Shown here one piece after another: positions 7,960 through 24,824 of a DNA stretch of 64,000 bases. Origin of the DNA: Candidatus Latescibacterota bacterium (lineage in GTDB: Bacteria > JAAXHH01); assembly GCA_022823465.1 (NCBI GenBank), contig JAJEHX010000025.1, positions 1-64,000 on the forward strand, given 5' to 3'. Below the pieces are notes generated by a model. The model did no database searches, was not told the DNA's origin, and saw only the letters and a list, made by a program, of their open reading frames with translations. The position numbers were made by a program, and so were the translations under genes. Each line of letters begins with the position of its first letter. Positions within the stretch are counted from its first letter, which is position 1.

Positions 7960-8365
7960 GACGGCACGCTCCTTTGGCGATTGGCGCCTGACTGATATCG
8001 AGTCATCTCGAAGTATCTGAAAACCAGGTACTCAGTCGTTGCAGGTCCAGGTGAAAGATGAATGCGGAACTCGATGCGGATGCCGGTCTCGGAATCCGGT
8101 GCGGAAGACAAACCACTTGCGACCGGACCGGATACCGCCTTAACTTCAACGCGGGCAACCGATCAGGACGCGAATCTATCTGCACATTTCGCCGTTGTCA
8201 ACTTCCAGTGGCGCGTGATATGGACTGTCGTAATTTTTAGTCTAGACTAAATATATAGTTATATAATATATGTGTCAATAATTAGATTAAGAAAACAGCA
8301 GGGCCGATCTGAACCGAAACCGGCAAGACCATGCCTGAGAAAACCAGTGGAGCCGCAACCAGTCC
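7960..8365. other. 406-base intergenic region between cupin and dus
   Basis: Contains the leftward iron-box promoter at 8231-8295 and a leader of roughly 280 bases running to the cupin gene. A 60-residue frame in the leader has no coding character that I can support. I see no clear sigma-70 promoter for the rightward dus gene beyond the AT-rich element itself. Confidence 0.6.
8231..8295 (-). promoter_or_regulatory. Leftward promoter with DtxR-type operator (copy 1)
   Basis: Read on the minus strand: TTGACA (8273-8278), 17 bases, TATATT (8250-8255), then the perfect 16-bp palindrome TTTAGTCTAGACTAAA (8236-8251), which overlaps the -10 and the likely start point. The 65-base stretch matches the promoter of the DtxR/feo operon at 27986-28050 at 57 positions. 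A palindrome overlapping the start site suits metal-dependent repression by the DtxR-type regulator at 28104. Confidence 0.8.
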
Positions 8366-9370
8366 ATGACCCGTGAAATCGCCATAGGCCCGCACCGCAT
8401 TACGTCGCTCAGGCCCGACATGCCGATCCTGACGCTGGCGCCCATGGCCGGGATCAGCAACTGGCCCTTCCGGTTGATCTGCGCGAGAATGGGCGCGCAG
8501 ATGGTCGGCGTGGAGTTCATCAACTGCAACGCCATTCTCCACCGGAACCCGAAGACGCTGCAGATGATGAACTTCTGCGACGCCGACATCTACCGCGATA
8601 CCGGGATGTCGCTGCTCGCGGCACAAATCTACGGGAACGACATCGGCCGCATGGTGGAAGGCGCGCTGGTCCTGGAGGAAAAAGGCGCGCAGATCATGGA
8701 CATCAACTTCGGCTGCTCGGTGCCCAAGATCCTGCGTTCCGACTCCGGCGCCGCCTTCCTCAAGGACATCGACAGGATGATGAACGCGGTGCGCAGCGTG
8801 GCCGACGCGGTCTCGATCCCGGTTATCATCAAGACGCGGCTGGGCTGGGACCACAACAACATCAGCATCCTGGAAGTGGTGAAACGCGCCGCGGATTCCG
8901 GCGCCCACGCCGTGGCCGTGCACGCACGGACCGTGGCGCAGAAGTTCAACGGGAACGCGGACTGGTCCTGGATCGCCCGGGCCGTGGAGGTCTCGCCCGT
9001 GCCGATCTTCGGCAACGGGGACGTGTTCACCTTTCGGGACGCGGTGCGCATGGTAGAAGAGACAGGGTGCGCCGGGGTGATGATCGCTCGGGCGGCCCGG
9101 GACAACCCCTACATCTTCTCCGGCGACGTGACGCCCACGTTTTCCGACCGGGTCAGGCTCGCCCGGGACCACCTGGGCATGATGGTGGAGTACAAAGGAG
9201 AGAAAGTCGGCGTGATGGAGATGCGGAAGTTCTTCGCTTCCTACTTCAAGGGCTTTCCCAACGCCTCCCACCTCAGAACCAGCCTCGTACAGGTGGACAC
9301 CGTCACGCAGGCCCACCGGATACTGGACGAGTGGGTGACTGATTCGGATCGTCGGTCCCATGATGCTTGA
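8366..9370 (+). CDS. dusB: tRNA-dihydrouridine synthase, DusB-like
   Basis: FMN-dependent enzyme of 334 residues that reduces uridines in the tRNA D-loop. The FMN barrel start LAPMAGISNWPFR, the active-site region DINFGCSVPKI with the catalytic Cys, the FMN/tRNA segment KTRLGWD, the HARTVAQ motif and the GNGDVFT loop all follow the Dus family. Its last 68 bases overlap, tail to tail, the end of phoU on the other strand. No strong ribosome site is seen before the ATG. DusA/DusC cannot be excluded from motifs alone, but the NFGC wording fits DusB best. Confidence 0.85.
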   Translation: MTREIAIGPHRITSLRPDMPILTLAPMAGISNWPFRLICARMGAQMVGVEFINCNAILHRNPKTLQMMNFCDADIYRDTGMSLLAAQIYGNDIGRMVEGALVLEEKGAQIMDINFGCSVPKILRSDSGAAFLKDIDRMMNAVRSVADAVSIPVIIKTRLGWDHNNISILEVVKRAADSGAHAVAVHARTVAQKFNGNADWSWIARAVEVSPVPIFGNGDVFTFRDAVRMVEETGCAGVMIARAARDNPYIFSGDVTPTFSDRVRLARDHLGMMVEYKGEKVGVMEMRKFFASYFKGFPNASHLRTSLVQVDTVTQAHRILDEWVTDSDRRSHDA

Positions 9371-10007
9371 TCACGCGGCCCTCTGAAAAATACACCACCC
9401 CTTCGGCGATGTTCGTGGCGTGATCGCCAAGCCGTTCGATGTGACGGGATATGAAGATCAACTGGAGGGCCTGGGGCACCGACCCGGAGTCCTCCACCAT
9501 GCAGGCCACCAGTTCCTGAAAGATCTGGTCCTGCAGTTGATTGACCTCTTCGTCCCTGGCGCACACGTCCATGGCCAGTTGCTCGTCTCCGCGGACGAAG
9601 GCGTTCAGGCTGTCCTTGACCATGGATTGGGAGAGGGCCGCCATCCGGGGCAGGTCAATGAGCGGTTTGAGATGCGGCATCCCGGAGAGCTTCCTCGTCT
9701 TCTTGGCGATGTTGACCGCGATATCGCCCATCCTCTCCAGGTCGATCGTGATCTTCATGCTGGCCGCCACGAAACGAAGGTCCCGCGCGATAGGATGCTG
9801 AAGGGCCAGCAGCCGGATACACTGGTCGTCGATCTCCAGTTCCATGGCGTCGATGGGCTGATCGCCGCGGATGACCTGCTCGCACAATTCGAAATCCCGC
9901 TCCACCAGCACCGTAATCGCCCGGGCGATCTGTTCCTCCACGAGCGACGCCATGCGCAGCAGGGCGGACTTCAACGCTTCCAACTGTTGTTGCAGGTGGG
10001 TTTCCAT
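9303..10007 (-). CDS. phoU: Phosphate signalling protein PhoU
   Basis: All-helical cytosolic protein of about 234 residues that couples the Pst transporter to the PhoR kinase and damps Pho signalling when phosphate is plentiful. Two PhoU repeats are visible, each with the acidic metal-binding helix pattern (DLRFVAASMKITIDLERMGDIAVNI in part, and FISRHIERLGDHATNIAEG). I start it at METHLQQQ (10007), the usual N-terminus; an in-frame start 14 codons earlier exists. It is the last gene of the receptor-pst operon and overlaps dusB tail to tail. Confidence 0.92.
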   Translation of the reverse strand: METHLQQQLEALKSALLRMASLVEEQIARAITVLVERDFELCEQVIRGDQPIDAMELEIDDQCIRLLALQHPIARDLRFVAASMKITIDLERMGDIAVNIAKKTRKLSGMPHLKPLIDLPRMAALSQSMVKDSLNAFVRGDEQLAMDVCARDEEVNQLQDQIFQELVACMVEDSGSVPQALQLIFISRHIERLGDHATNIAEGVVYFSEGRVIKHHGTDDPNQSPTRPVSGGPA

Positions 10008-10067
10008 GGTCGTCTGTTTCGTGAGAGGACTTCCGGCGCCGTCCTGCACGGCTCGTGACCGGCGGCG

Positions 10068-10865
10068 CTATCCCGCCCGGCCCGTGATGTAATCCTCCGT
10101 ACGACGGTCCCGGGGCGTGGTGAAGAGCACGTCGGTTACGCCCGTCTCCACCAGTTCACCCTCAAGCATGAAACCGGTGAAGTCCGATACACGGGCTGCC
10201 TGCTGCATATTGTGCGTAACGATAACAATGGTGTAATCGTCCTTCAGATCAAGCATTAATTCCTCGATCCTGGACGTGGCCACAGGGTCCAGCGACGAAC
10301 AGGGTTCGTCCATGAGCAGCACTTCCGGCTCGACGGCGACCGCCCGGGCGATGCAGAGCCGCTGTTGCTGTCCGGCGGAGAGCTTGAGGGCGCTTTCCTC
10401 GAGCTGGTCCTGGACTTCGTCCCACAATACGGCCCTGCGCAGGCACCGCTCCACGATCTCATCGAGGAATTCCCCCGACTTTACTCCGTGGATTCGGGGA
10501 CCGTAGGCTACGTTCTCGTAGATCGACTTGGGGAAGGGGTTCGGCTGCTGGAATACCATGCCCACGCGCCGGCGCAGTCGCGTTACGTCCACGTTCGCGC
10601 CATAGATGTCTTTCCCGTTCATCCGGATCGATCCCGTCATGCGGGTCTGGGGAACCAGGTCGTTCATGCGGTTCATCAGCCGCAGCAACGTCGTCTTGCC
10701 GCAACCGGACGGGCCTATATACGCCGTGATGCCGTGGCGGTCTATGGCCATGGAGACGTTGCGCAACGCGGCGTTTTCGCCGTACCAGAAGGAAACGTCC
10801 TGGATGTCGATCACCGGAAGATCCTGCACGATCTTCGGCGTGGACGGTTCGCGTGCTGTCGCCAT
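10068..10865 (-). CDS. pstB: Phosphate ABC transporter ATP-binding protein
   Basis: ATPase subunit of the high-affinity phosphate importer, 265 residues. Walker A is GPSGCGKTT at residues 51-59, the Q-loop is [10 protein letters not shown], the signature is LSAGQQQRL, Walker B is [12 protein letters not shown], and the switch His is in [14 protein letters not shown]. The signature has Ala where most PstB have Gly (LSGGQ), a mild deviation. It lies between pstA and phoU on the minus strand with short gaps, so it belongs to the same transcript. Confidence 0.95.
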
Positions 10866-10910: not shown

Positions 10911-12344
10911 TCAGGCCTGGGCCGCGGACAGTGAATACCGCCTTCTCAGTCGCGTGCGGAGTCCGATCGCCGCCGCGTTCAACACAGCCACGGTAACGAG
11001 CAGGAGCAGCGTAGTCGTATACGCCATCGGCAGCGCGGCCTCGCCGCCGGCCGGACGAAAACCGGTGTCGAATATGTGGTAGCCCAGGTGCATGAATTCC
11101 CGTTCCAGGTGTACGAAGGGCCAGACGCCGTCCACGGGCAGTTCAGGGGCAAAGGCGACCACCCCGATGATCATCAACGGCGCCACGGTACCGGCCGCCC
11201 GCGCCACGGACAGGATCAGACCCGTGAGTATGGAAGGCAGCACTACGGGCAGGACTACCCGCCACAGGGTCTCGAACCGTGTGGCACCCACCGCGTGGGA
11301 AGCTTCGCGCAGTGCAACGGGCACGGCGGCCAGACCCTCCTCCACGGCCACGATGACTACGGGCAGCGTGAGCAGGGCCAGGGTCAGCGCGCACCACAGG
11401 ATGCCGCCCCGGCCGAAGGTCGGCTCCGGCAAAGCCTCCTGGTAAAACACCCGGTCCAGGGTTCCCCCCAGAAAATACACGAAAAACCCGAGCCCGAAAA
11501 CCCCGAAGACGATGGACGGCACGCCGGCCAGGCTGTTGACGGCGACGCGCACGACGCCCAGCAGGGGTCCCGGCCTGCCGTATTCTCTCAGATAAAAGGC
11601 CGCGAGCACCCCGAAGGGCATCACGACGACCGCCATGATGACGACCATTACGGCGGTTCCGAAAATGGCCGGGTAGACCCCGCCCCGGCTGTTCCCGTCT
11701 CGTGGAGAAGCCCACAGGTACGTCCACGCCCCCGCCATGTAATGCCGGATCCTGTCCCATGCGCTCATTGCATTGGGACCGTACAGGCGAAGGACGTCCG
11801 ACAGGGGCACTGCGTACCTCCGTCCGTCCGCGGCAGACAGCTCGATGGACAGCGCCTGCTGCCTGCGCAGTCGTTCCAGCTCGGGAAACCGTTCCCGGTA
11901 CGCGGACCATACCGCCTCGTGTCCTTCGGCTACGATCCTGCCGTCGTCCACGAAGGACTCCAGGAAGCCGAAGACGTCTCCGCCCGCGGTCCGCTCGACG
12001 ACCACGGCCCGCCGTGGCGCATCCCGCGCTACGACCTGGCCTTCCTCGAACCAGGTGTGCCCGTTCGGATAAAGCGCCTGGTTCCCCGTCTTCACCCGGA
12101 TCCGGTACCCAAAGGTTGTGCCACCGGTACGATCCACTCCCCGGACGGTTTCATGGTACATTTCCTGGCCCAAAATGATCCGCCCGTCGCGCAGGACATA
12201 CCGGGTCAGGTCCTGGGGCCAGAAAAAACCCAGGCCGTGCACGGCAATTATCAGCACCAGTCCCGCGACCAACAGGAAAATGACGGCCAGGGTTCCGCCG
12301 GACAGCCAGACGAGGGCATCGTCCCCGGACCACTTCAAACGCAT
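10911..12344 (-). CDS. pstA: Phosphate ABC transporter permease PstA, long form
   Basis: Inner-membrane permease of 477 residues, clearly longer than the E. coli protein of about 300. One N-terminal membrane helix (about residues 13-37) is followed by roughly 170 residues of predicted periplasmic sequence, and then by the usual permease core with the EAA-type loop LREASHAVGATRFETLWRVVLP. Extended PstA proteins with such an N-terminal insert are known. AAGGAG precedes the ATG by five bases and overlaps the pstC stop region. Partner of PstC and PstB. Confidence 0.9.
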   Translation of the reverse strand: MRLKWSGDDALVWLSGGTLAVIFLLVAGLVLIIAVHGLGFFWPQDLTRYVLRDGRIILGQEMYHETVRGVDRTGGTTFGYRIRVKTGNQALYPNGHTWFEEGQVVARDAPRRAVVVERTAGGDVFGFLESFVDDGRIVAEGHEAVWSAYRERFPELERLRRQQALSIELSAADGRRYAVPLSDVLRLYGPNAMSAWDRIRHYMAGAWTYLWASPRDGNSRGGVYPAIFGTAVMVVIMAVVVMPFGVLAAFYLREYGRPGPLLGVVRVAVNSLAGVPSIVFGVFGLGFFVYFLGGTLDRVFYQEALPEPTFGRGGILWCALTLALLTLPVVIVAVEEGLAAVPVALREASHAVGATRFETLWRVVLPVVLPSILTGLILSVARAAGTVAPLMIIGVVAFAPELPVDGVWPFVHLEREFMHLGYHIFDTGFRPAGGEAALPMAYTTTLLLLVTVAVLNAAAIGLRTRLRRRYSLSAAQA

Positions 12345-12353
12345 CGAAACTCC

Positions 12354-13592
12354 TTACAATGAGGATGGGGCGGACGCCCGACGCATAAGCGGTCTCCTCA
12401 ACCGACGCCGGATCAGTTCCGCCAGGGTGTTAATCGTAAAAGTCGCAATGAGCAGCAAAAAAGCGGCAAAAAACATCACCTGGTACAGGACTCCCCCCTG
12501 TCCGGCATCCGGCAGTCCGAGGGCGATACCGGCCGAAAGCGCTCTGAATCCGGTGAAGACGGACCAATCCATGGCCGGTACGTTTCCCGATACGAACAGG
12601 ATGATCATGGTCTCGCCGATCGCCTTGCTGAATCCCAGCATGACCGCGGACAGGATGCCGGCGCCCGCCGTGGGAAGGACGATGCGCACCGCCGTCTGCC
12701 AGCGCGTGGCCCCCAGTGACAGCGAACCCGCCGTGTAGGAAGAGGGCACCGCGGACATGGCGTCCTCGGAAATCGTGAATATGATCGGGGTCACGGCGAG
12801 GCCCATGACCATGCCCACGACGATGGAGTTACGCTGGGCGAAATCAAGTCCCAGTACGTCAATGAACCGGGTACCGTCCTGTAAATACCGGGCCTCCAGC
12901 ATGGCCCCGCATTCGAATGCCATCCATCCGCCCGCCAGCACGGCCGCCGACAGTATCCAGATTTCCATCCCCGGCCGGTGACGGGGCCGGAACCAGGCCG
13001 GTGCGTAGTGCCTGATCATAAAGGCGGCCGCCACGACGCCGGAGATGAGGAGGGGCGCCAGGAAAAGGGCGATTACGTGATTCTCCAGGAACGGCGCGAG
13101 CCAGATGCCGCCAATGAAACCGAGGACGACACTGGGGACCGCTGCCATGATTTCCACCAGCGGTTTCAGGCGCTCCCGCAAGCCGCGCGGCATGAACTGC
13201 GAGGCATATAGCGCGGCGAGTACCGACAGGGGCACCGCGAAGAGCAGGGTGTACAGCGCCCCTTTCAGGGTCCCGAAGATCAGTGGCAACAGGCTGTATG
13301 CGCGTTCGACTCCTTCCGCGGTGTCCGAAGTCTGTCCGCGGTAGGACTCCTGTTGTGCCTCCACATCTTGTGCCCCCACCTCCACGGCCATCGATCGGAA
13401 TTCCGCACCGGTCCAATCGTCAAACAGAACAGCCGGAGATATAACCAACGGATGAATCACCCAGATGATCAGGGCGAAAACGGAAAGGATGGTCAGTACC
13501 AGGACGATGCCGCCCAGTGCGGCGAGGCGCCCGAACAGCAAGTCCAGCAGACGGCGCCGGTCAATACGGCGTCCTCGGGTTCGATCGGCCAT
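12354..13592 (-). CDS. pstC: Phosphate ABC transporter permease PstC
   Basis: Inner-membrane permease of 412 residues with an N-terminal helix at about 22-47, a periplasmic insert, and a C-terminal transport core carrying AGSLSLGATRWQTAVRIVLPTA, the EAA loop that contacts PstB. The segment SAVMLGFSKAIGETMIILFVSGN is characteristic of PstC. It begins 27 bases after the beta-helix protein stop. No pstS (periplasmic phosphate-binding protein) precedes it, which is unusual for a pst operon. Confidence 0.92.
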   Translation of the reverse strand: MADRTRGRRIDRRRLLDLLFGRLAALGGIVLVLTILSVFALIIWVIHPLVISPAVLFDDWTGAEFRSMAVEVGAQDVEAQQESYRGQTSDTAEGVERAYSLLPLIFGTLKGALYTLLFAVPLSVLAALYASQFMPRGLRERLKPLVEIMAAVPSVVLGFIGGIWLAPFLENHVIALFLAPLLISGVVAAAFMIRHYAPAWFRPRHRPGMEIWILSAAVLAGGWMAFECGAMLEARYLQDGTRFIDVLGLDFAQRNSIVVGMVMGLAVTPIIFTISEDAMSAVPSSYTAGSLSLGATRWQTAVRIVLPTAGAGILSAVMLGFSKAIGETMIILFVSGNVPAMDWSVFTGFRALSAGIALGLPDAGQGGVLYQVMFFAAFLLLIATFTINTLAELIRRRLRRPLMRRASAPSSL

Positions 13593-13619: not shown

Positions 13620-15347
13620 TCATTTCAACAAGGTCATCTTCCGGGTGGACACGTGCTCCGTACGGCCGTCGGCCGTGGCTTCGAGGCGAAACAGGTACAC
13701 TCCGCTCGAAAGGTCCCGCGCTTCCCAGGTCTCAGAGTAGTTCCCCGGAAGCCGGACCGCGTTTACCACCGTCGCCACCCGCTGTCCCAACAGGTTATAT
13801 ACCTCAATCAGAATGTGGCTCGTCGACGGTACCTCGTAATCGATATGCGTGGTCGCAGCGAAGGGGTTCGGACGGTTTTGCGACAGGCTGAACGCGCCGG
13901 TTATTTCTTCACCCGGTATTTCGGGTTCCGGCGGGACGGGAGGAGGCGCGGCACCGAAGTACCCCAGCGCCGAGAGCGCGGTCCAGCTCAACGCCCAGTT
14001 TTCGGCGCCGAAGGCGCCCGTGTAATCGACGTCCGTGAAGAACCCGCTCTCGCGCGGCTCATCCCTGAGCATGCCCGCGTCCCAGGCGGGACTGCTGCCG
14101 ACGGGCCGCGGATCCAGCCCCTGGTTACGGTTCCAACTGATGCCCTGAAGCATCGGATCCATGATACGGATGACGTTGGAGGCATCGGCAAGCAATGCCG
14201 CCGAGTGCGCGTCGCCGCCCAGCTCACTGGCCGTGCCGCCCCGACCGAATCTGCCCAGGATGTTGTACTGGAAGGCCAGGTCGCCCGCTTCGAGACGCGC
14301 CTTGCTGTCCTGCGAACCCTTTGTCGGGTCGAGGTCTTCGATCGAGAGCATGTGCCCTTTGAACTCCGTGAAGATGCTATTGAAATACATCCCTCCCGCG
14401 CTGTCCCGGAAGATAAGGGCGTTGTTCGACTTGCCGCCCGTGGCGTTCGCGCCGCGGCCGATATAGGTCGCGTTCAGAATGGCGGGACTGGCATACGGCG
14501 TCCCGTCCTCGGGGTCCGTACCTCCGTCGTGCTCTCCGGCGTGATCGCCCAGGGACGGGTCCTGGATCGAAAACCAGAACTGGTGCTCGCCGCGGAAGCC
14601 CTCGTCGTAGTCGAAGCTGTCATCACCGGCAAAGGCCGCCACGAGGTAGCGTGTGTTCACCGTGCCGCCGAACCACTCGAAACCGTCGTCCCTGTTGTAG
14701 AACACCTCCACGTACTCTATGGTCGTACCGCGGCCTACGCCGCCCATGGTCAGTCCGTTGATCTCGTTGTCCGCGCCGACGACCGCGCCGCCGTGACGGA
14801 TCGACACGTAACGGAAAACGCCCGAGTTGTCGTCGTCATCGGGGATTGCGCCACCGCCATAGATCCCCCGGGGCTCGGTCGTCGCGTCAATGCCTTCCAC
14901 GTTGTTCTCGCCCGTGGCCGTGTTGATGGACGCGCGGCCCAGGATGACGACCCCGCCCCAGAGACCTCTTGACGCGGCTGGAGATGAAAGGAGTATGTCG
15001 TCCGGATCATCCACGTCGTCGGCCTCGGCCGTGAAGATGATGGGGTTACTGGCCGTGCCGTCGGCGAGGATCCTGCCGCCACGGGCCACGATCAGCACCG
15101 AATCGTCGCCGGAGGTACCCGAGGGCCTGCCCTTGACGACCGTACCCGGCTCGATGGTCAAGGTCTCGCCTTCCTCGACGAAGACCAGGCCCGAGAGCAC
15201 GTAGACGGTATCGGCGGAGAAGGTGACGTTGCCGATGATATCGGCGTCGGTAACGGTGCGTACAGGTTTAGAGGCTGGCTGAGCGGCGGCGGGGAAAGGA
15301 ACGGTTAGCGTTAACGCGAAGGCAACAGGGAACAACCTGCTGAACAT
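13620..15347 (-). CDS. Secreted beta-helix protein with type IX-like C-terminal sorting domain
   Basis: 575 residues: signal peptide at 1-22 ending AAAQP, then a long region of short repeated strands (TLTIEPGTVVKG, GGRILADGTASNPIIFTA) of the right-handed parallel beta-helix kind seen in adhesin-like and lipoprotein families, and a C-terminal domain FSLSQNRPNPFAATT...VYNLLGQRVATV...SGVYLFRLEA, the type A sorting domain used by the type IX secretion system in FCB bacteria. Expected at the cell surface or outside. It sits between the TonB receptor and pstC in the Pho-controlled operon, so a role in capturing a phosphorus source is possible but unproven. Confidence 0.75.
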   Translation of the reverse strand: MFSRLFPVAFALTLTVPFPAAAQPASKPVRTVTDADIIGNVTFSADTVYVLSGLVFVEEGETLTIEPGTVVKGRPSGTSGDDSVLIVARGGRILADGTASNPIIFTAEADDVDDPDDILLSSPAASRGLWGGVVILGRASINTATGENNVEGIDATTEPRGIYGGGAIPDDDDNSGVFRYVSIRHGGAVVGADNEINGLTMGGVGRGTTIEYVEVFYNRDDGFEWFGGTVNTRYLVAAFAGDDSFDYDEGFRGEHQFWFSIQDPSLGDHAGEHDGGTDPEDGTPYASPAILNATYIGRGANATGGKSNNALIFRDSAGGMYFNSIFTEFKGHMLSIEDLDPTKGSQDSKARLEAGDLAFQYNILGRFGRGGTASELGGDAHSAALLADASNVIRIMDPMLQGISWNRNQGLDPRPVGSSPAWDAGMLRDEPRESGFFTDVDYTGAFGAENWALSWTALSALGYFGAAPPPVPPEPEIPGEEITGAFSLSQNRPNPFAATTHIDYEVPSTSHILIEVYNLLGQRVATVVNAVRLPGNYSETWEARDLSSGVYLFRLEATADGRTEHVSTRKMTLLK

Positions 15348-15418: not shown

Positions 15419-18361
15419 TCAGATGCCATAGGAGAAGCCGATGGACAGGCTTCGTCCCCGCTGGTAAAGGGTACGGACAAACTCCTGGCCGTTGAACGGA
15501 TGAACTTTCTTGATGTCCGGGTTCAACAGGTTCTTGAGCGAAAACTTGAGGGTGACCCGGTTCCACAGGCGCTGCGATCCGGTGATATCGAGCATTCCGG
15601 CCGGTTGTTCGAATGCGTTTGGCGTACCGCCGGTACTCACTTCGGAAAGCCGTTCGCCGAAGATATTGTAGTGCAGGCTGAGCAGCGTGCCGGTATCCGG
15701 ATTGTCGTACATGGCGTCGATATTGACCACGTAGGGCGACTGCCCCTGCAGCTTGCGGGTATCCGCGGCCTGGGGATCGAGCGCTCGAATGACGGCCAGC
15801 TCGGAAGGTGCGATGTCTACCTGCGACCTGACTAAAGACAGGTTGCCGCTCAGCTGGAAGTTTCTCAGCGTGGGATGGAACTGATCCAGTTTCTTTCGGT
15901 ACTCGAGCTCGATACCCGAGACCATGGCCCGGTCCACGTTCTGGAACTGGATTTCTCCGTTCGTGGTCACGATCACGCGTTCGATGGGGTTTTCGAAGTC
16001 TTTGTAGAACAAGCTCACCGCATAGATCTCTCCCGGGCGGGTGAACCACTCCCAACGGATATCGTAGTTCTCGATCAGCGTGCGTTTCAACCCGCTGTTG
16101 CCGACGAAGATGAAGTCGCCCACGAAGAGGAAGGACGCGAATGGCGCCAGCTCGCGGAACGAGGGTCTCGCCAGCGTACGGCTGAACGCGCCGCGCAGGT
16201 TCATTTTGTCCGTGAGCTGATACACGGTGTTGAGTGAAGGCAGCCAGTCGTTTTCGTCCAGCTTGCCCGGCCTGAGCGAAGTTTCGTGGCTGGCCACGTT
16301 CAGCCGGGTCGCTTCGAACCGCGCGCCGCCGGTGACCTTGAAACGATCCGCGAGGGGCAGGTCGAGCATGACGTATCCGGCAAGTACATGCTGGTCTCCG
16401 TCGTAGTTGTTCTTCAGGTCGGAATCTTCGGTGATGAAACTGCCGAACCGGGTAAAACCCGGGGTGTCCTGGAGATATTCGGGCAGGATTCCGATCCGGT
16501 CGGAGGAGAAGAACAGATCGGGATCGTTCCGGTACCGCACGTTGTCCTGGTGGAATGAAAAGCGCCGCTCCCTGAAGGAATGGTCCTTGTCGAGATAGGC
16601 GCCGCCGAACTTGAGCCGCGCGGTCAGATCGGCCCATTGCCGGAACGGCAGGGTGACGTCCATGCTGAAGTCCCGGTTCGATTCGACCAGGTTCCTGAAG
16701 TACCGGGTGGGCGCCGAGTAATTGGACAGGGCGATCGTATAGCTGTCGAAGTCCGGAGCGCCTTCGCCCCGCGCGTCGACGGTCTGATACTCATTGGTAA
16801 AATAACGCAGGTCCGGCTCATCCTGGGTGGACCGGATGAAAGCGCCGGTCCATTCGATTTCCAGGCCCGACAGGTCTGGCAGGACGTGCTTGCCGCGGAG
16901 CTGCAGCGACCGCATCTCCCGCTCGGTAAAGGAGAGCACCCGGGTCTCGTACCGTACGTTCCCGCCAGGCAGGGAGGACGGCCAGGCGCCGGTCTGGTAT
17001 CTCGCCATCTTGTCGCCGCTTCGGTTATAAAGCAGGTTGGCGCCGATCTCGTGGGTAATGCCCGGCTGGTAGGTAATGTTCATCAGCCCGCCCCAGAGCG
17101 TTTCCTCCGACCCGCTCGTGTCCGTGGCGAACCGTTCCCTGTTCAGGTCCTCCGACTCCCTGGACACACGTTTCCATATTCCGGATACGCCGTTGTCGTA
17201 TGCCGAAATGTTGCGATTGAAGCTGACACTGCCGAGCAACCCCAGGGGACGATCGAAGACCGACGTCTGGTTGCCGACGGAAAAGGAATAGCTCTGGCCG
17301 AGGCCGCCCGGTTTCATGGACGGCGTCATCGTCTTGTCGGCGAAAGCCCTCGAGTAATGATCCAGCATCTGCGCCTTTTCCGGATCCCGAAGCGCGCTGG
17401 TGATGCTGGGTATCTCTACGTCCGGATTCCGAAGCGGCAGCGGAATATCCCGCGTGCCGTCGTCCACGCCGAGGTAATCGTAAGCCCCGCCTTCGTAACT
17501 CAGCATGTCCTTGAAGGAGGACTGGGAGTTGATCCTGGTGGACGAGGAGAAGTTCATGGTGAAGGATTCGGGGAGCGACTTGGTCTTCACGTTGACGCTG
17601 CCGCCGGTGAAGTTCCCGGGCTTGTCGGGCGTGAAGGTCTTTTCCGTGGTGATGTTGTCCAGGAGATTCGTCGCGAATATATCCATCTGGACCGACTTGC
17701 TGTTCGGATCGGCGCTCGGCAGCGCGGTCCCGTTCAACTGCGCGGTGCTGTACCGCTCGCCCAGTCCGCGAATATAGACGTATTTGCCGTCAACGACCGA
17801 CGCGCCGGTCACGCGGGTCATGGCCGACGCCACGTCGCCCTGAGCCGATCTGGAGATATCCTCGGCACTGATGGCGTCACTGATGGACAGGGCGTTCTGC
17901 CTCTGCTTCAACAGCGCCGCTTCCGTGTTTTCCAGGGCTTTTGCCGTTACTTCCACCACGTCCGCCACAATAAGCTCCTGCTCGACGACGATATCTATTC
18001 TGCTCACCTGGCCTGGCTCGACCAGGATCTCGGTGATCCGCTTCTGCGCAAACCCGATCATGGAGACAACGATCGCATGCTGTCCCGCGGGAACGCCTCG
18101 AATGAGATACCTGCCATCGATATCGGCCATCGCGCCAAGCTCGTATCCTGCCACCATCACCGTGGCGCCGATCAGGGGATCCCCTGTCTCCGCGTCGACG
18201 ACCGTACCCGATATGCGGCCTTCGAGCCCTTGTGCGCGGACCTCTGTCAACGTGACCGCAAACAGCGTTGCCACGGTCACCGCGGCGAGCATCGACCTGA
18301 TCATCCATCCGGGCACGATCTTCGAACATCTGGTTTCGGAGTGCAGGAACACCGACGTCAT
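15419..18361 (-). CDS. TonB-dependent outer-membrane receptor with carboxypeptidase-regulatory-like domain
   Basis: 980 residues. A signal segment (about 18-44) is followed by a CarboxypepD_reg-like beta domain (GRISGTVVDAETGDPLIGA..., residues about 48-130), a plug domain with VYIRGLGERYSTAQLNGT, and a C-terminal 22-strand barrel ending in an aromatic/hydrophobic strand (LSIGFSYGI). It imports a ligand by TonB energy; the ligand is not evident. AAAGGAG precedes the ATG. The promoter carries five 11-bp Pho-box-like repeats, and the gene heads the operon that continues through pstCAB-phoU, so a phosphate-containing ligand is the natural hypothesis. Confidence 0.88.
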   Translation of the reverse strand: MTSVFLHSETRCSKIVPGWMIRSMLAAVTVATLFAVTLTEVRAQGLEGRISGTVVDAETGDPLIGATVMVAGYELGAMADIDGRYLIRGVPAGQHAIVVSMIGFAQKRITEILVEPGQVSRIDIVVEQELIVADVVEVTAKALENTEAALLKQRQNALSISDAISAEDISRSAQGDVASAMTRVTGASVVDGKYVYIRGLGERYSTAQLNGTALPSADPNSKSVQMDIFATNLLDNITTEKTFTPDKPGNFTGGSVNVKTKSLPESFTMNFSSSTRINSQSSFKDMLSYEGGAYDYLGVDDGTRDIPLPLRNPDVEIPSITSALRDPEKAQMLDHYSRAFADKTMTPSMKPGGLGQSYSFSVGNQTSVFDRPLGLLGSVSFNRNISAYDNGVSGIWKRVSRESEDLNRERFATDTSGSEETLWGGLMNITYQPGITHEIGANLLYNRSGDKMARYQTGAWPSSLPGGNVRYETRVLSFTEREMRSLQLRGKHVLPDLSGLEIEWTGAFIRSTQDEPDLRYFTNEYQTVDARGEGAPDFDSYTIALSNYSAPTRYFRNLVESNRDFSMDVTLPFRQWADLTARLKFGGAYLDKDHSFRERRFSFHQDNVRYRNDPDLFFSSDRIGILPEYLQDTPGFTRFGSFITEDSDLKNNYDGDQHVLAGYVMLDLPLADRFKVTGGARFEATRLNVASHETSLRPGKLDENDWLPSLNTVYQLTDKMNLRGAFSRTLARPSFRELAPFASFLFVGDFIFVGNSGLKRTLIENYDIRWEWFTRPGEIYAVSLFYKDFENPIERVIVTTNGEIQFQNVDRAMVSGIELEYRKKLDQFHPTLRNFQLSGNLSLVRSQVDIAPSELAVIRALDPQAADTRKLQGQSPYVVNIDAMYDNPDTGTLLSLHYNIFGERLSEVSTGGTPNAFEQPAGMLDITGSQRLWNRVTLKFSLKNLLNPDIKKVHPFNGQEFVRTLYQRGRSLSIGFSYGI

Positions 18362-18438
18362 TCAACTTCTCCTTTCGGCTCGTTTAATAACCCGCCGGCG
18401 AGTACCTGGCCGCAGGCTGTAGTAAATCAACCGCGGAC

Positions 18439-18505
18439 AATATAAGGAGGCTGTTTGACGATTCTGTTACGAACAGTACACAAGACCATGACATTGACAG
18501 GACAA
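18439..18505 (-). promoter_or_regulatory. Pho-box array and -10 element of the receptor-pst operon
   Basis: On the minus strand five 11-base units in perfect phase (TTGTCCTGTCA, ATGTCATGGTC, TTGTGTACTGT, TCGTAACAGAA, TCGTCAAACAG) end six bases before TATATT (18439-18444); no -35 hexamer is present. Eleven-base direct repeats with a TGTCA core set this far from the -10 are the layout of PhoB-activated promoters. PhoB and PhoR are encoded nearby. Confidence 0.65.
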
Positions 18506-18553
18506 TATGACTTATTCGCTCTTGCACTGTGAGGTCGAGACGACAAAGACGGC

Positions 18554-18583
18554 TTGACAAATCCTCCATTTCTCTTGTTTTAT
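18554..18583 (+). promoter_or_regulatory. Possible promoter of ppk1
   Basis: TTGACA at 18554-18559 with TTTTAT 18 bases on; the -10 is weak. It would give a leader of about 220 bases before the ppk1 ATG. The divergent Pho-box array lies 50 bases upstream and could act on this side too. Confidence 0.35.
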
Positions 18584-18670
18584 TGTTACTCGGACCAGGA
18601 CGCGTACCCTGTCGATCCGGTGTTTATCCGGCCCGGTCTATTCCAGTCCGACCCGGTGTCGATCCGGTTC

Positions 18671-18717
18671 AGTCCGGTCCGGGGCGGCCCAGTCCGGTCC
18701 GGGGCGGCCCAGTCCGA
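18671..18717 (+). repeat. 20-bp tandem repeat in the ppk1 leader
   Basis: The unit AGTCCGGTCCGGGGCGGCCC occurs twice head to tail, followed by a partial third copy, inside a stretch (18620-18725) built of CCGGTCC-type words. It is very GC-rich and self-complementary, so the leader RNA will be strongly folded. Confidence 0.8.
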
Positions 18718-18814
18718 CCCGGGCCGCAGACATCTGAATCGGTTGTCGTGGCGCGGTACCGCGCGCCAGCCAGTTGCAGGCCCTGAGGCCATCTATCATT
18801 CCGGTGACTTGATT

Positions 18815-21067
18815 ATGCCAGCCGCAAACGGAAACAACGCCCGGACCGCCACGGTCCGAACCATCGCTTCGAGGAGAGCCGGCCGCCGGTTCACCCGAAA
18901 GCCCCGGCCGTCCACGGCGCCGCTGGTGACGAACTACTGGCGCCCGGAGCACTTCTTCAACCGGGAACTGAGCTGGATGGAATTCAACGCGCGGGTGCTG
19001 GAAGAAGCGCTCGACCCGACGGTCCCCCTGCTCGAACGGGTGAAGTTCCTGGCCATATTCAGTACCAACCTGGACGAATTCTTCATGATCCGGGTCGCCG
19101 GCGTGAAGAGGCAGATCGATGCGCAGATCCAGTCGACCCGGACGGCGGACGGCCTGAGTCCCCGGGAAGTCATGACCGCGCTTTCGGCCCGGATGCACGA
19201 ACTGGTCAACAAGCAGCACGGGCTGTTCATCAACGAGATCTTTCCGCAGCTCACCGCGCAGGGCATCGACATACTCAAGCCCGAGCAGCTCAGCCCCTCG
19301 CAGAGGGCGTATCTGGACGAGTACTTCCGGAAGACCATCCTGCCCGTGGTAACCCCTCTGGCGGTGGACCCCGGCCATCCATTCCCGTACCTGGCCAACG
19401 GCACGCTCTGTCTCGTGGCCGAAATCCGCAAGATCCAGCGGTCCGTATTCCCCCATACCAATCTCTCGGTCATCCACCTGCCCACCTCGGTCATGCCGCG
19501 GTTCCTCGAGCTACCGTCCGAAAACGGCCGGCAGGCGTTCTTCATGCTGGAGGACGTCATCCTCATGAACCTGGACCTGTTCTACAACGGCTACGAGGTG
19601 CTGAACTGCGCGTCGATCCGGGTGACGCGGGACGCCGACGTGGATTACGAGGAGGAAGGCGCGGAGGATCTGCTGACGGTCATCGAGGAAGGCATACGAA
19701 ACCGGCGCAACGGGGCCGCCGTCCGGCTGCAGTACGATCCGGACCTGTCTGCCCGCATACTGGATATCCTGGTGGATGAACTGGAGCTGGAGCCGGAGGA
19801 TCTCTACCCCACGGAGGGCTTCACCGCGTTCTCGGATCTCATCGAGTTCTACGATGCCATCGACCGGCCCGATCTGCTGGACGAGCCTTTTCCGCCCCAG
19901 CCGGCGACTTGCTTCGAGGGCGCCGTATCCCTGTGGGAAGCGATAAAAAAGGAAGACATTCTGCTGCACCACCCCTTCCATCAATTCAACGCGGTGGTCC
20001 GTTTCGTATCGGAGGCGGCGGTGGATCCTCACGTGCTGGCCATCAAGATGACCCTGTACCGGGTCAGCGCCAATTCGCCCATTACCCGGGCGCTGACCCG
20101 GGCGGCGGAGAACGGCAAGGAAGTATCGGTGCTGCTGGAACTGAAGGCCCGGTTCGACGAGGCGGCGAACATCCAGTGGGCGAGGCAGCTGGAGGAGGCT
20201 GGGGCCCATGTGATCTACGGCATTCCAGGCATCAAGGTCCATTGCAAGGCCTGCCTGGTCGTGCGCCGCGAGGGAGAAGGGATTCACCGCTACTGTCACC
20301 TGGGCACGGGGAATTACAATGACAAGACGGCGCGCATCTACGCAGATTTCGGCCTCTTCACGGCCAGGGAGGAATTCGGCGAGGACGTAACGCAGCTATT
20401 CAACCTGCTGACCGGCTACGCGCTGCCCTCGCATTTTCACCACCTCATTCTCTCACCCACGTCGATGCGGGAGGACATGGTGAAACGGCTGCGGCGGGAG
20501 AGCGAAAACGCGCGGGCGGGACGGCCGGCCCTTGTCATCGCCAAGATCAACTCCCTCGTCGACCCGGACATGATCGTGGAACTGTACCAGGCATCCCAGG
20601 CCGGCGTGCAGATTCAAACGATCATACGGGGCATATGCTGCCTGAGGCCGGGCGTTCCGGGGCTGAGCGAGAACATCAGCGTCATCAGTATCGTCGACCG
20701 GTTTCTAGAGCACGTCCGTCTCTTCTATTTCTACAACGACGGGGACCCGGAATACCTGTTTTCCAGCGCGGACTGGATGGATCGGAATCTCAACCGTCGC
20801 GTCGAAGTTTCCTTCCCGGTCCTGGACCGGGCGCTTCAGGCGGAACTTTGGGCGTATTTGAAGATACAGCTGAAGGACAACGTGAAAGCGCGGGAATTGC
20901 AGTCGGACGGAACGTACAGGTACGTGAAGAAAGCAGGAAGGCGTTTGCAGTCTCAGCGGGAATTGTACGAACTGGCCTGCGAGACGGTGCGGGTGAACGC
21001 GGGCATGAAACGCAATCGTACACGCGGGTCCCTGGAGGCCAGGACCCCGGAAGGACAAAAACGGTAG
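18815..21067 (+). CDS. ppk1: Polyphosphate kinase 1
   Basis: Makes polyphosphate from ATP through a phosphohistidine intermediate; membrane-associated. The N-domain start FNRELSWMEFNARVLEEA, the middle KFLAIFSTNLDEFFMIRVAG, and the two phospholipase D-like C-domains with KMTLYRVSANSPI, HCKACLVVRRE and HRYCHLGTGNYNDKT (autophosphorylated His region) are present. I place the start at the ATG at 18815 (750 residues, normal for PPK1). The frame stays open 87 codons further upstream, but that part translates a GC-rich repeat and reads as non-coding. Lies next to the Pho-controlled operon and phoBR. Confidence 0.94.
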   Translation: MPAANGNNARTATVRTIASRRAGRRFTRKPRPSTAPLVTNYWRPEHFFNRELSWMEFNARVLEEALDPTVPLLERVKFLAIFSTNLDEFFMIRVAGVKRQIDAQIQSTRTADGLSPREVMTALSARMHELVNKQHGLFINEIFPQLTAQGIDILKPEQLSPSQRAYLDEYFRKTILPVVTPLAVDPGHPFPYLANGTLCLVAEIRKIQRSVFPHTNLSVIHLPTSVMPRFLELPSENGRQAFFMLEDVILMNLDLFYNGYEVLNCASIRVTRDADVDYEEEGAEDLLTVIEEGIRNRRNGAAVRLQYDPDLSARILDILVDELELEPEDLYPTEGFTAFSDLIEFYDAIDRPDLLDEPFPPQPATCFEGAVSLWEAIKKEDILLHHPFHQFNAVVRFVSEAAVDPHVLAIKMTLYRVSANSPITRALTRAAENGKEVSVLLELKARFDEAANIQWARQLEEAGAHVIYGIPGIKVHCKACLVVRREGEGIHRYCHLGTGNYNDKTARIYADFGLFTAREEFGEDVTQLFNLLTGYALPSHFHHLILSPTSMREDMVKRLRRESENARAGRPALVIAKINSLVDPDMIVELYQASQAGVQIQTIIRGICCLRPGVPGLSENISVISIVDRFLEHVRLFYFYNDGDPEYLFSSADWMDRNLNRRVEVSFPVLDRALQAELWAYLKIQLKDNVKARELQSDGTYRYVKKAGRRLQSQRELYELACETVRVNAGMKRNRTRGSLEARTPEGQKR

Positions 21068-21095: not shown

Positions 21096-21157
21096 ACACA
21101 CAGGCGGACCGGGGCGTGCAATGATCTCCCCGGTCCGTCTGTTTCTGTGTGTGTGTT
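21096..21157. terminator. Bidirectional hairpin terminator between ppk1 and the membrane-protein gene
   Basis: A long interrupted inverted repeat: AACACACAG plus GCGGACCGGGG on one side, CCCCGGTCCGTC plus CTGTGTGTGTT on the other, with a loop of about 13 bases. It lies exactly between two convergent genes. The T tract is only moderate (TGTTTCTGTGTGTGTT), so efficiency is uncertain. Confidence 0.6.
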
Positions 21158-21485
21158 ATCCTCCGATGCGGGCCGCCACTCTCTTGACGAGAATGGTTGC
21201 GACACCGGCGTACAGGACCGTGCTGACCGGATCCATGATGGCATCCAGGGCACCGCCGATGGCCGGGATATTGCCGAGTACATCCATGCCCGCGGCCGCG
21301 CCGACGGCGATCGTAACCGCCAGGTAGCCCGTCGCGTCTTCCGCGTCAACCGCCATGTGCGCGTAAAGCAGGCCGAGAATCGCCAGCGCCATCATGGTCA
21401 GTGCCGATGAGATCAACGCACCGGGAAACAGCCCTTCGATTACTGCCAGGATGACAGAGATTATAACGACAAGCCGTGTTGCCAT
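21156..21485 (-). CDS. Small integral membrane protein, paralogue A
   Basis: 109 residues with three to four hydrophobic segments (about 3-25, 30-50, 55-78, 84-102). I do not recognise the family. It shares with the protein at 21584 the block VTIAVGAAAG.DVL.NIPAIGGALDA..DP.S..LYA followed by a basic C-terminus; the two arose by tandem duplication. AGGAGG precedes the ATG at close to ideal spacing. Situated between ppk1 and phoR, so a phosphate-related role is conceivable, but nothing in the sequence shows it. Confidence 0.75.
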   Translation of the reverse strand: MATRLVVIISVILAVIEGLFPGALISSALTMMALAILGLLYAHMAVDAEDATGYLAVTIAVGAAAGMDVLGNIPAIGGALDAIMDPVSTVLYAGVATILVKRVAARIGG

Positions 21486-21583: not shown

Positions 21584-21913
21584 TCAACCTTTGATCCGGT
21601 TTACCGTCCGCATGATCAGGATGGAAACCACGCTGGCATACAGGGCTGAACTGGCCGGATCGAGCATGGCGTCCAGGGCGCCGCCGATGGCCGGTATGTT
21701 GCTCAACACGTCCGCGCCCGCGGCCGCGCCGACCGCTATGGTCACGACGAGAAAATCCGTCGCGTTCTCCGCGTCGACTCCCATGAAACCGTAGATGATG
21801 CCCAGGACGACAATCAGGAGCATCATAACCCCGCCGTCATTCATCATGCCACCCGCTAAACCCTGAATAATCGCCAGCAGGGCGATTAAAATGACAACTA
21901 CTCTGGTCACCAT
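21584..21913 (-). CDS. Small integral membrane protein, paralogue B
   Basis: 109 residues, same length and topology as its downstream neighbour and conserved with it mainly from residue 45 on, including the acidic DAE.AT motif before the third helix. The N-terminal halves diverge (this one is Met- and Gly-rich around residues 20-30). AGGAGG lies seven bases upstream of the ATG. The leader from the nearest candidate promoter is about 250 bases. No known domain is recognised. Conserved glycine-rich VGAAAG and NIPAIGGALDA turns suggest a packed helical bundle, possibly an oligomer. Confidence 0.75.
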   Translation of the reverse strand: MVTRVVVILIALLAIIQGLAGGMMNDGGVMMLLIVVLGIIYGFMGVDAENATDFLVVTIAVGAAAGADVLSNIPAIGGALDAMLDPASSALYASVVSILIMRTVNRIKG

Positions 21914-22269: not shown

Positions 22270-24132
22270 TTAAGTCATGCCGTCAGTTGAAGTTCCGGAG
22301 ACTGCCTCGCGGTCCGACTGAGGAAGTCGACCCGACTCGGCGGCGGTTTCATCTTCCGGCCAGGCGGGGAGCGAAAGGAAGAAGCTCGCGCCTTCGCCGA
22401 CCCGGCTCTCGACCCAGGCCCGTCCATTCAACAATTCCATGGTGTGGCGGACGATCGCAAGGCCGAGGCCGGTCCCCCCCAGCGCCCTTGATCGCGCCCG
22501 GTCCACCCGGAAGAATCGTTCGAAGATCCGCGGTAAGGCATCGGACGGAATACCGGGTCCCGTATCGGCTACGGACAGGACGATCTCCTCGCCCCGTTCC
22601 GCGATGCCTACGGTGATCAATCCGCCGTCCTCAGTATACTTGACGGCGTTGTCGACCAGGTTGGAGAGGGCCCGCTCCATCAGCGCGGCGTTACCGCGCG
22701 CGGGTTTTTTCGTTTCGAACCGGAGGGCAAACTTCAGATGCTTGCGGGCGATCTGTTCCGCGAATCCCTCCGCGACTCGTTCGGATATCCGGTCGAGGTG
22801 GCAGGCCGCAATTTCGACCTCATACTGTCCGGACTCGATCCGGGAGAGTTGGAGGAGGTCCTCGACCAGCGCCTGCAACCGGTCGGTATGGTGCAATATG
22901 GAGTTGACGAAGCGGCGCAACGCGGTCGTATCGTCCATGGCGCCGTCCAGCAGGGTCTCGACATAGCCCTTGATGGAGGTCAGGGGGGTCCTGAGCTCGT
23001 GGGACACGTTGGCCACGAAGTCCTTCCGAACCTGTTCGAGGCGCCGCAGTTCGGTCGCGTCGTGGAACACGGCGACCACGCCGTGAAGCCGCTCGCCGAT
23101 GCGTATGGGCGTCAGATGCACCTGGAAGATGCGCTGGCTCCATTCCAGGGTCAGGTCGAAGACGGTGTCCCCGTTCAGAGAGGGCGCGGAGTCGATCGCG
23201 GCGTCCACCGCGCTTTGCAGGTCATGGTTGCGCACCACCTCGATCGGCCGCTTGTTCAGGCACCAGGCGTCCACCTCCATCATGTGCTTGAATGCCGGGT
23301 TGACCATCAGGATCCGGCCATCGGCGGAGGTGACCATGACGCCTTCCGCCATGCCTGACAGCACGGCTTCGAGCTGGGCGTTCTCTTCCCGGATCTGCGA
23401 AATCCGCTCCTTTGACTGCTGGGCCATCTCGTTCAGGGCGGCGGCCAGCGAGGCCAGCTCGGCGTGGGCGGGCGCGGAGGCCGTGACCGTGAGATCGCCG
23501 GCGGCCTGACGGAGGGCGACTTCCGTCATGCGTTCGATGGGACGGGATACCAGCCTCTCCGTGGCCCAGCTCAGCACGACGCTCAACAAGAGGCCGATGC
23601 AAAGGGCGGCAAGCACGATCTTCCATATGTGAGACTCGATCCACTGGAACTGCTGAAGCGGCAGCGCGACGCGCACGACGCCCCGCGTTCCCTCGGCCTG
23701 GAAGGGTACCGCCACGTAAGCCATGTCGGTTTCCAGGGTATTGCTGTATCGGATGCTGTTGCCGACGCCCGACGCGACGGCCTCGGTGATTTCGGGCCGG
23801 TCGCCGTGGTTTTCCATAAAAGGAACGGCAGAAAGGGGGATGGATGAATCACCGGCCACGACGCCGTCTTCCGCCACTACGGTCACCCGGGCGCCGCACT
23901 GCTCCGCCAGGCGGTCCGCGATCGGATCGACCGTCCCGGGAGAAAGCGAAGGGAGCGGGGTGTTTTCGAGGTAGGACTGGATCAGGCGCGCGTCGTTGAG
24001 CAACTGCTGGCGGGTGTGGCCGCTTACGTCCCCGCGCAGGGACGTGTTCAGGTAAACGTACACCGCGCCTGCCACCAGGAGGGTGAAGGCAACGTAGCCG
24101 ACCAGAATCTTGGTTTGAAGCGAAAACCGCAT
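22270..24132 (-). CDS. phoR: Phosphate-regulon sensor histidine kinase PhoR
   Basis: 620 residues. Membrane helix at about 6-26, periplasmic domain, second helix near 165-185, HAMP, a PAS domain (VLSGMAEGVMVTSADGRILMVNPAF), the H-box FVANVSHELRTPLTSIKGY with the phosphorylated His, and the N/G boxes LVDNAVKYTEDGG, DTGPGIP and GGTGLGLAIV. The ATG at 24132 lies eight bases after the phoB stop; a longer upstream reading runs inside phoB and is rejected. The large periplasmic domain distinguishes it from the short E. coli type. Partner of PhoB and probably held in check by PstCAB-PhoU. Confidence 0.9.
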   Translation of the reverse strand: MRFSLQTKILVGYVAFTLLVAGAVYVYLNTSLRGDVSGHTRQQLLNDARLIQSYLENTPLPSLSPGTVDPIADRLAEQCGARVTVVAEDGVVAGDSSIPLSAVPFMENHGDRPEITEAVASGVGNSIRYSNTLETDMAYVAVPFQAEGTRGVVRVALPLQQFQWIESHIWKIVLAALCIGLLLSVVLSWATERLVSRPIERMTEVALRQAAGDLTVTASAPAHAELASLAAALNEMAQQSKERISQIREENAQLEAVLSGMAEGVMVTSADGRILMVNPAFKHMMEVDAWCLNKRPIEVVRNHDLQSAVDAAIDSAPSLNGDTVFDLTLEWSQRIFQVHLTPIRIGERLHGVVAVFHDATELRRLEQVRKDFVANVSHELRTPLTSIKGYVETLLDGAMDDTTALRRFVNSILHHTDRLQALVEDLLQLSRIESGQYEVEIAACHLDRISERVAEGFAEQIARKHLKFALRFETKKPARGNAALMERALSNLVDNAVKYTEDGGLITVGIAERGEEIVLSVADTGPGIPSDALPRIFERFFRVDRARSRALGGTGLGLAIVRHTMELLNGRAWVESRVGEGASFFLSLPAWPEDETAAESGRLPQSDREAVSGTSTDGMT

Positions 24133-24140
24133 GACGTGGC

Positions 24141-24824
24141 CTACCTGGTGAAGCGGTAGCCTACTCCGCGCACCGTTTCCACCATGCCGCTGGCCTCGCC
24201 GAGTTTCTCTCTCAGGCGCTTGATGTGGGCGTCCACGGTACGGCCGTACCCCATGTAGTCGTAGCCCCACACCACGTCGAGCAGTTCTTCCCGCGTCTGC
24301 ACTCGTCCCCGGCGCTGATAGAGGATGACCAGCAGTTTGAATTCGGTGGCCGTCAGGGAAACGGAACGGCCCGCTACGGACACGTGGTGACCTTCCACGT
24401 CGATGACGAGGGGGCCGACACGGGCCGGACCCTGGGTTTCGGGTACGGTACGCCGGCGCAGTATGTTGCGGATGCGCAGGGCGATCTCCCGGGGACTGAA
24501 GGGTTTGACCACGTAGTCGTCGGCGCCCAGTTCGAGACCGATGATCCGGTCGATTTCCTCGCTTTTGGCGGTCAGCATCAGGATGGGAATGGACCGCGTG
24601 CGTTCGTCCTGCTTCAGAATGCGGCAGACCTCGGTGCCTTCGAGTCCGGGCAGCATCAGGTCGAGCACGATGAGATCGGGCGTATCGTCACGGGCTTTCT
24701 CCAGGGCGGCGGGGCCGTCCGCCGCCACGATGACGTCAAAACCCGACTTCTCCAGGTTGTACTGGATGATTTCCACGATATCCGGTTCGTCGTCGACGAC
24801 CAGTATCGTCTGTCGCATCTTCAC
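24141..24824 (-). CDS. phoB: Phosphate-regulon response regulator PhoB
   Basis: 227 residues: receiver domain with the acidic DDEP pair near the N-terminus, phospho-accepting Asp in LIVLDLMLPG, Lys in VVKPFSPREIALR, and an OmpR-type winged-helix DNA-binding domain ending in RTVDAHIKRLREKLG...VRGVGYRF. Its order ahead of phoR, and the surrounding pst/phoU/ppk genes, support PhoB over other OmpR-family members. It is expected to bind the 11-bp repeat array at 18451-18505. Confidence 0.9.
   Translation of the reverse strand: MKMRQTILVVDDEPDIVEIIQYNLEKSGFDVIVAADGPAALEKARDDTPDLIVLDLMLPGLEGTEVCRILKQDERTRSIPILMLTAKSEEIDRIIGLELGADDYVVKPFSPREIALRIRNILRRRTVPETQGPARVGPLVIDVEGHHVSVAGRSVSLTATEFKLLVILYQRRGRVQTREELLDVVWGYDYMGYGRTVDAHIKRLREKLGEASGMVETVRGVGYRFTR

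Follow-up and report, generated by a model that had tools for sequence, protein, structure and literature searches.

In the phoA promoter of Escherichia coli an isolated -10 box lies six bases past the last unit, and the view that a PhoB-bound unit replaces the -35 element derives from the structure of the PhoB complex. The PhoP boxes of Bacillus are TTAACA repeats. Pho boxes are defined as direct repeat units of 11 nt, and both the head-to-tail arrangement of PhoB and the replacement of the -35 contact by a unit are implied via the known structure of the complex (reviewed in PMC4415409). Low-phosphate pairs of a TonB-dependent receptor (TBDR) and a secreted protein have been described in Flavobacterium and Caulobacter. 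In the phoBR cluster of Flavobacterium johnsoniae the TBDR Fjoh_0545 and the FII lipoprotein Fjoh_0546 are strongly induced on phosphate depletion; the FI-FIII proteins are described there as weakly similar to pectate lyases and polygalacturonases and as related to a Caulobacter low-phosphate lipoprotein, and plant-associated Bacteroidetes are reported to be without PstSABC (PMC8115612). In Caulobacter crescentus the extracellular phosphate-starvation lipoprotein ElpS (CC0170) adjoins the TBDR CC0171, reported to be constitutive, and genes for type II secretion, in a cluster without reported pst genes (PMC2996285).

The window (the whole 64-kb stretch of DNA that was analysed) contains a probable Pho promoter ahead of a receptor gene. 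Reading the minus strand from 18505 to 18439, TTGTCCTGTCA, ATGTCATGGTC, TTGTGTACTGT, TCGTAACAGAA and TCGTCAAACAG abut, followed by CCTCCT and then TATATT. The elements are as follows.

18495..18505, minus strand: unit 1, TTGTCCTGTCA; a half-site in the window genome only
18484..18494, minus strand: unit 2, ATGTCATGGTC; GTCATG kept in 12/12 genus genomes
18473..18483, minus strand: unit 3, TTGTGTACTGT; the weakest half-site; TTGT kept in 12/12, next base G/A/C
18462..18472, minus strand: unit 4, TCGTAACAGAA; 11/11 letters kept in 12/12 genomes
18451..18461, minus strand: unit 5, TCGTCAAACAG; the promoter-adjacent half-site, at the place expected of a -35 element
18439..18444, minus strand: -10 box TATATT, 6 bp past unit 5; TATAAT in most relatives
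18464..18476, no strand: 13-bp inverted repeat CTGTTCGTAACAG (CTGTT-CGT-AACAG) spanning units 3 and 4; near-invariant in the genus

The five abutting 11-mers ending 6 bp before TATATT, as described in the first-pass annotation, are thus confirmed on the minus strand, and the absence of a -35 hexamer is borne out, no sigma-70 -35/-10 pair being found within 18300-18900. The T/C-GT-C/A core assigned there to every unit holds for four of them; unit 3 reads TTGTG and so falls outside it, and in the genus it is TTGTA in five of 12 genomes and TTGTC in one. The half-sites TGTCA, CGTCA and CGTAA are of the classical PhoB type. In its 11-nt direct half-sites with a TGTCA-like core, the replaced -35 element and the isolated -10 box, the promoter is the same as those of the phoA/pstS type in E. 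coli. It is unlike them in having four conserved units plus one that is lineage-specific, a weak third unit and a palindrome across units 3 and 4, and its spacers are less A/T-rich than those of E. coli Pho boxes.

Units 2-5, the 6-bp gap and a TATAAT or TATATT box are kept in all 12 genomes of the window's Latescibacterota genus. Among the close relatives of the window genome, those with names are either Latescibacterota MAGs or MAGs that carry the label Gemmatimonadetes. The block GTCATG....TTGT...CTGTTCGTAACAGAATCGTCAAA, with the six bases that follow and the -10 box, is preserved nearly letter for letter in 12/12, and the DNA farther upstream has diverged. A half-site matrix was derived from 15 same-genus promoters, leaving out that of the window. 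Against this independent matrix unit 3 scores poorly as a half-site. Unit 1 scores 5.7, the level of the conserved outer units and one reached by 0.2% of window positions. A fifth conserved unit was sought across the 12 genus genomes and not found. Because unit 1 is confined to the window genome and unit 3 is a poor half-site, the ancestral count is taken as four and not five, with unit 1 a local extension that has a good half-site score. The stress laid in the first-pass annotation on five half-sites, against the usual two to four, is therefore not borne out as the defining trait: four are conserved, and homologous arrays range from two to six.

The array precedes an operon whose genes, with those nearby, are listed here.

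15419..18361, minus strand: TonB-dependent receptor (P0001), 980 aa; heads the operon, with a 5' UTR of about 70 nt predicted
13620..15347, minus strand: secreted protein (P0002), 575 aa; T9SS type A sorting domain, ElpS/FII-like
12354..13592, minus strand: pstC; TIGR02138 above cut-off
10911..12344, minus strand: pstA; TIGR00974 above cut-off
10068..10865, minus strand: pstB; TIGR00972 above cut-off
9303..10049, minus strand: phoU; TIGR02135 above cut-off
18815..21067, plus strand: ppk1, encoding polyphosphate kinase; divergent from the operon, its start codon picked by eye inside the ORF 18554-21067
24141..24824, minus strand: phoB-type response regulator (P0004); among the models listed, PhoB fits best
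22270..24270, minus strand: phoR/pnpS-type histidine kinase; longest ORF, start probably near 24133, right after phoB

The receptor has plug and beta-barrel domains (PF07715 and PF00593, both above cut-off), and the six genes of the order TBDR-secreted protein-pstC-pstA-pstB-phoU are separated by gaps of 71, 27, 9, 45 and 18 bp. The TonB receptor had been named as the target; it does follow the array, but this undersold the locus, since the receptor heads TBDR-secreted protein-pstCAB-phoU. The PhoB placed 6 kb away is present, as part of phoB-phoR at 22270-24824. P0004 scores 257 with the PhoB model, below the NCBIfam equivalog cut-off of 296. The phoB-phoR genes adjoin the operon in every genus locus long enough to include them, and gene order is the same in the four relatives with long enough loci. 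The sole pstS-like gene found lies on a different contig (contig 39), and no convincing array was found directly upstream of it. The ORF at 8282-9361 was rejected as a gene of the operon; it is without a family match and is probably not a gene. Two adjacent, similar predicted membrane proteins of 109 aa lie between phoR and ppk1 (21156-21485 and 21584-21913, minus strand); the one tested, at 21584-21913, gave no match in Pfam. In the ppk1 leader region, at about 18650-18720, there are short direct repeats resembling GGACCGGACTGGGCCGCCCC.

How general is this geometry? Genomes were searched with the pattern YGTMA-6-YGTMA-11-TANNNT (two half-sites 11 bp apart and a TANNNT box) together with a control pattern. 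In the window's own genome there are two matches, the window promoter and one at a PorV-family gene, versus none for the control; across the 12 genus genomes there are 33 versus three. The geometry is found at few loci per genome, with 29 of the 33 matches at three recurring loci: 12 at the window operon, 12 of the PorV type and five between ppk1 and the receptor gene. The others are one SulP match (G001) and three singletons. For nine of the PorV-type matches the PorV frame itself was read; another sits at the very end of its contig, and the remaining two were assigned from only the matched sequence. Neighbouring genera in the order gave few or zero matches.

The PorV/PorQ-family outer-membrane protein gene is preceded by a three-unit candidate Pho promoter of the same geometry (G000:C48:82890-82933, minus strand; L011, L079), and sites matching it, likewise with the 6-bp gap to the -10 box, are found in 12/12 genus genomes. 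L099, L100, L103, L105 and L109 (G009, G001, G011, G007 and G004, respectively) have a further three-unit candidate Pho promoter in the interval from ppk1 to the receptor gene; in G009 and G004 it precedes a small gene (about 161-181 aa) without a Pfam match, which was not seen in G001, G007 and G011. A near-copy of the receptor promoter, inner block included, stands ahead of a gene for a SulP-family transporter that has STAS and cNMP-binding domains (L125, G001:C4:45698-45742). At G000:C31:11435-11472 (L009) three TTGTCA units, all perfect and phased at 11 bp, occur with a weaker fourth, flanked by a gene for 261 aa and a PLP-dependent (threonine-dehydratase-like) gene, and also in G009:C238. 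This triple was rejected as a Pho promoter; the PLP-dependent gene is on the opposite strand, and only one other genus genome has the array.

Arrays of this kind are not restricted to the genus. Loci with the receptor/secreted-protein pair carry the labels KSB1, Zixibacteria, Ignavibacteria, Calditrichaeota, Verrucomicrobia, Gemmatimonadaceae, Deltaproteobacteria and Gammaproteobacteria, and phoB, phoR or pstS is often close by. In most distant loci a generic degenerate half-site score could not tell arrays from the AT-rich background; for the loci named below, scans specific to the TTAACA or TGTCA motif, controlled for period and by shuffling, could. Six distant loci have a TTAACA array ahead of the receptor gene, and in each of them 11 is the best four-unit period among 8-14. 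The TTAACA-like 11-bp arrays, found in KSB1, Zixibacteria, Ignavibacteria and Calditrichota loci before the homologous pair, resemble Bacillus PhoP boxes, but occur in other phyla, and the half-site letters of the window itself differ. One Ignavibacteria MAG has six uninterrupted TTAACA-type 11-bp units before its receptor gene (L023:3470-3560), with 33/36 letters matching; the array stops five bases short of TAGATTTG, which we take to resemble the -7 element of Bacteroidota. In the Alteromonas-group loci TGTAA-6-TGTCA-11-TANNNT precedes the first gene of the pair in 8/8, again with the 6-bp gap to the box, and only one further match turned up in the roughly 180 kb that these loci span. With two units in the Alteromonas group and six in the Ignavibacteria MAG, array length is therefore variable, from two to six.

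The window promoter has the traits of a Pho promoter: at least two phased 11-bp TGTCA-like half-sites, a unit in the -35 position and a fixed gap to the -10 box, with PhoB/PhoR in the genome and the phosphate-acquisition genes pstC, pstA, pstB and phoU downstream. Very probably, then, the array marks a promoter at which PhoB activates an operon for phosphate acquisition. The PhoB-type control proposed in the first-pass annotation is upheld by the geometry, the genus-wide conservation, the controlled genome-wide count, the pst-phoU operon, the adjacent phoB-phoR and the cross-phylum arrays. The design is that of a typical Pho promoter, newly described in an uncultured phylum, and is well supported as such. 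On phosphate scarcity PhoR would phosphorylate PhoB, presumably P0004, whose phosphorylated monomers would bind head to tail on the 11-bp half-sites along one face of the DNA. PhoB-P on unit 5, at the place of the -35 element, would hold region 4 of sigma-70, so that RNA polymerase could use the isolated -10 box, with a start point about 70 nt ahead of the TBDR start codon. A single transcript would then carry the receptor, its T9SS-tailed partner and PstC-PstA-PstB-PhoU, so that the outer-membrane step, the inner-membrane step and the PhoU brake would be induced jointly. Counting against PhoB control are the score of P0004 below the equivalog cut-off, the weak unit 3, the lack of a convincing array at pstS and the conserved inner palindrome, which exceeds what PhoB half-sites alone require.

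Could the array be a chance periodicity of intergenic DNA? When the 300 bp ahead of the receptor gene are shuffled by dinucleotides, 0.3-0.7% of the shuffles yield an 11-bp TGTCA array as good as the observed one (p about 0.003-0.007). When the whole 64-kb window was scanned on both strands with the independent matrix (about 127,900 positions), the best four-unit 11-bp array started at 18505 on the minus strand (7.0; next non-overlapping -1.3), and the best of five units was 18505-18451 on the minus strand (12.6; next non-overlapping -12.6), while 60 shuffled windows gave a five-unit maximum of 7.6. Yet one shuffled window topped the four-unit score, with 15.6, and at another place in the window there is a period-9 array with a similar score (12.9), so that the window by itself would not be conclusive. 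A search for TGTCA-TGTCA-TGTCA with three mismatches allowed gave matches no better than the control. The matter is settled by genus-wide conservation: the array is kept in 12/12 genomes against diverged upstream DNA, and such arrays recur in other phyla, which makes chance hardly credible.

A site for another response regulator of the OmpR/PhoB family, in place of the PhoB of 24141-24824, is a closer alternative. Such regulators likewise bind 10-11-bp direct repeats, several OmpR-family models score well on P0004, which misses the PhoB equivalog cut-off, and a genome of 3.9 Mb can be expected to encode paralogues. However, classical PhoB half-sites, a pst-phoU target with phoB-phoR alongside in all genus loci reaching them, and arrays at phosphate-linked pairs across phyla make it quite improbable. 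That PhoB mainly represses here, or that the site serves ppk1, whose start is about 310 bp off on the other strand, is more improbable still, since the half-site orientation and the 6-bp gap to the -10 box point toward the TBDR operon and the -10 box is as well conserved as the half-sites. The 13-bp inverted repeat would fit a composite operator, in which a second regulator recognizes the palindrome CTGTTCGTAACAG over units 3-4, joining another signal to PhoB. All 11 letters of unit 4 are the same in 12/12 genomes, even at spacer positions that PhoB has no need to read, and the inner block occurs once per genome, except for the G001 SulP promoter and one match with two mismatches. On the other hand, the palindrome form is found at only three places in its own genome, hence without a regulon, and as a regulon-wide operator it was rejected. 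At the SulP promoter, the only paralogous one, the arms are mismatched (CTGTCCGTAACTG) and the phased half-sites kept, which speaks against a palindrome-binding regulator there. We regard a composite operator as unlikely; nevertheless CTGTTCGTAACAG at the window operon is conserved beyond the needs of the half-sites.

With PhoB as the probable activator, the operon can be set beside the described pairs. Its TBDR and secreted protein, which look homologous, would correspond to the low-phosphate pairs of Flavobacterium and Caulobacter. Like F. johnsoniae PUSIV, to which it is likened by gene pair and context, the locus has a TBDR and a secreted protein beside phoBR, but here the pair heads pstCAB-phoU. 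The likeness to Caulobacter ElpS, a secreted protein with an adjacent TBDR, is one of gene order and runs via a plasmid-borne P0002 homologue in Indioceanicola (36% over 57% of the query; order elpS-like/TBDR/T2SS), whereas P0002 has a T9SS tail and ElpS is a type II-secreted lipoprotein. Sequence comparison with solved structures found no relative of P0002. Its structure model is moderate (mean pLDDT 78.6) and has many short strands; pectate lyases and tailspikes are among the best fold matches, which are weak, with low query TM-scores.

The tie of the receptor/secreted pair to PhoB-type control across phyla strengthens the case that this poorly understood pair may take up phosphorus compounds. 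More speculatively, the TBDR and its ElpS-like partner might form a widespread system for phosphate or organophosphate uptake at the outer membrane, directly controlled by PhoB in many phyla, here fused with pstCAB-phoU and with the palindrome as a second input, a proposal to which we give a low probability. If true, import across the outer membrane, import across the inner membrane and the PhoU brake would all be set by one phased-array promoter. The binding grammar and its targets provide a testable Pho regulon for an uncultured phylum, and the conserved grammar could be used for reading Pho regulons in further metagenome-assembled genomes. Some loci show variation in the pair itself. The T9SS-protein frame is much longer in L014:13032-15545 and L015:13032-16703, with two or three secreted-domain repeats; the receptor reading frame of L056 (G006:C17:70108-72975) has one internal TAA; and a Zixibacteria MAG (L022) carries two receptor/secreted-protein pairs in tandem.
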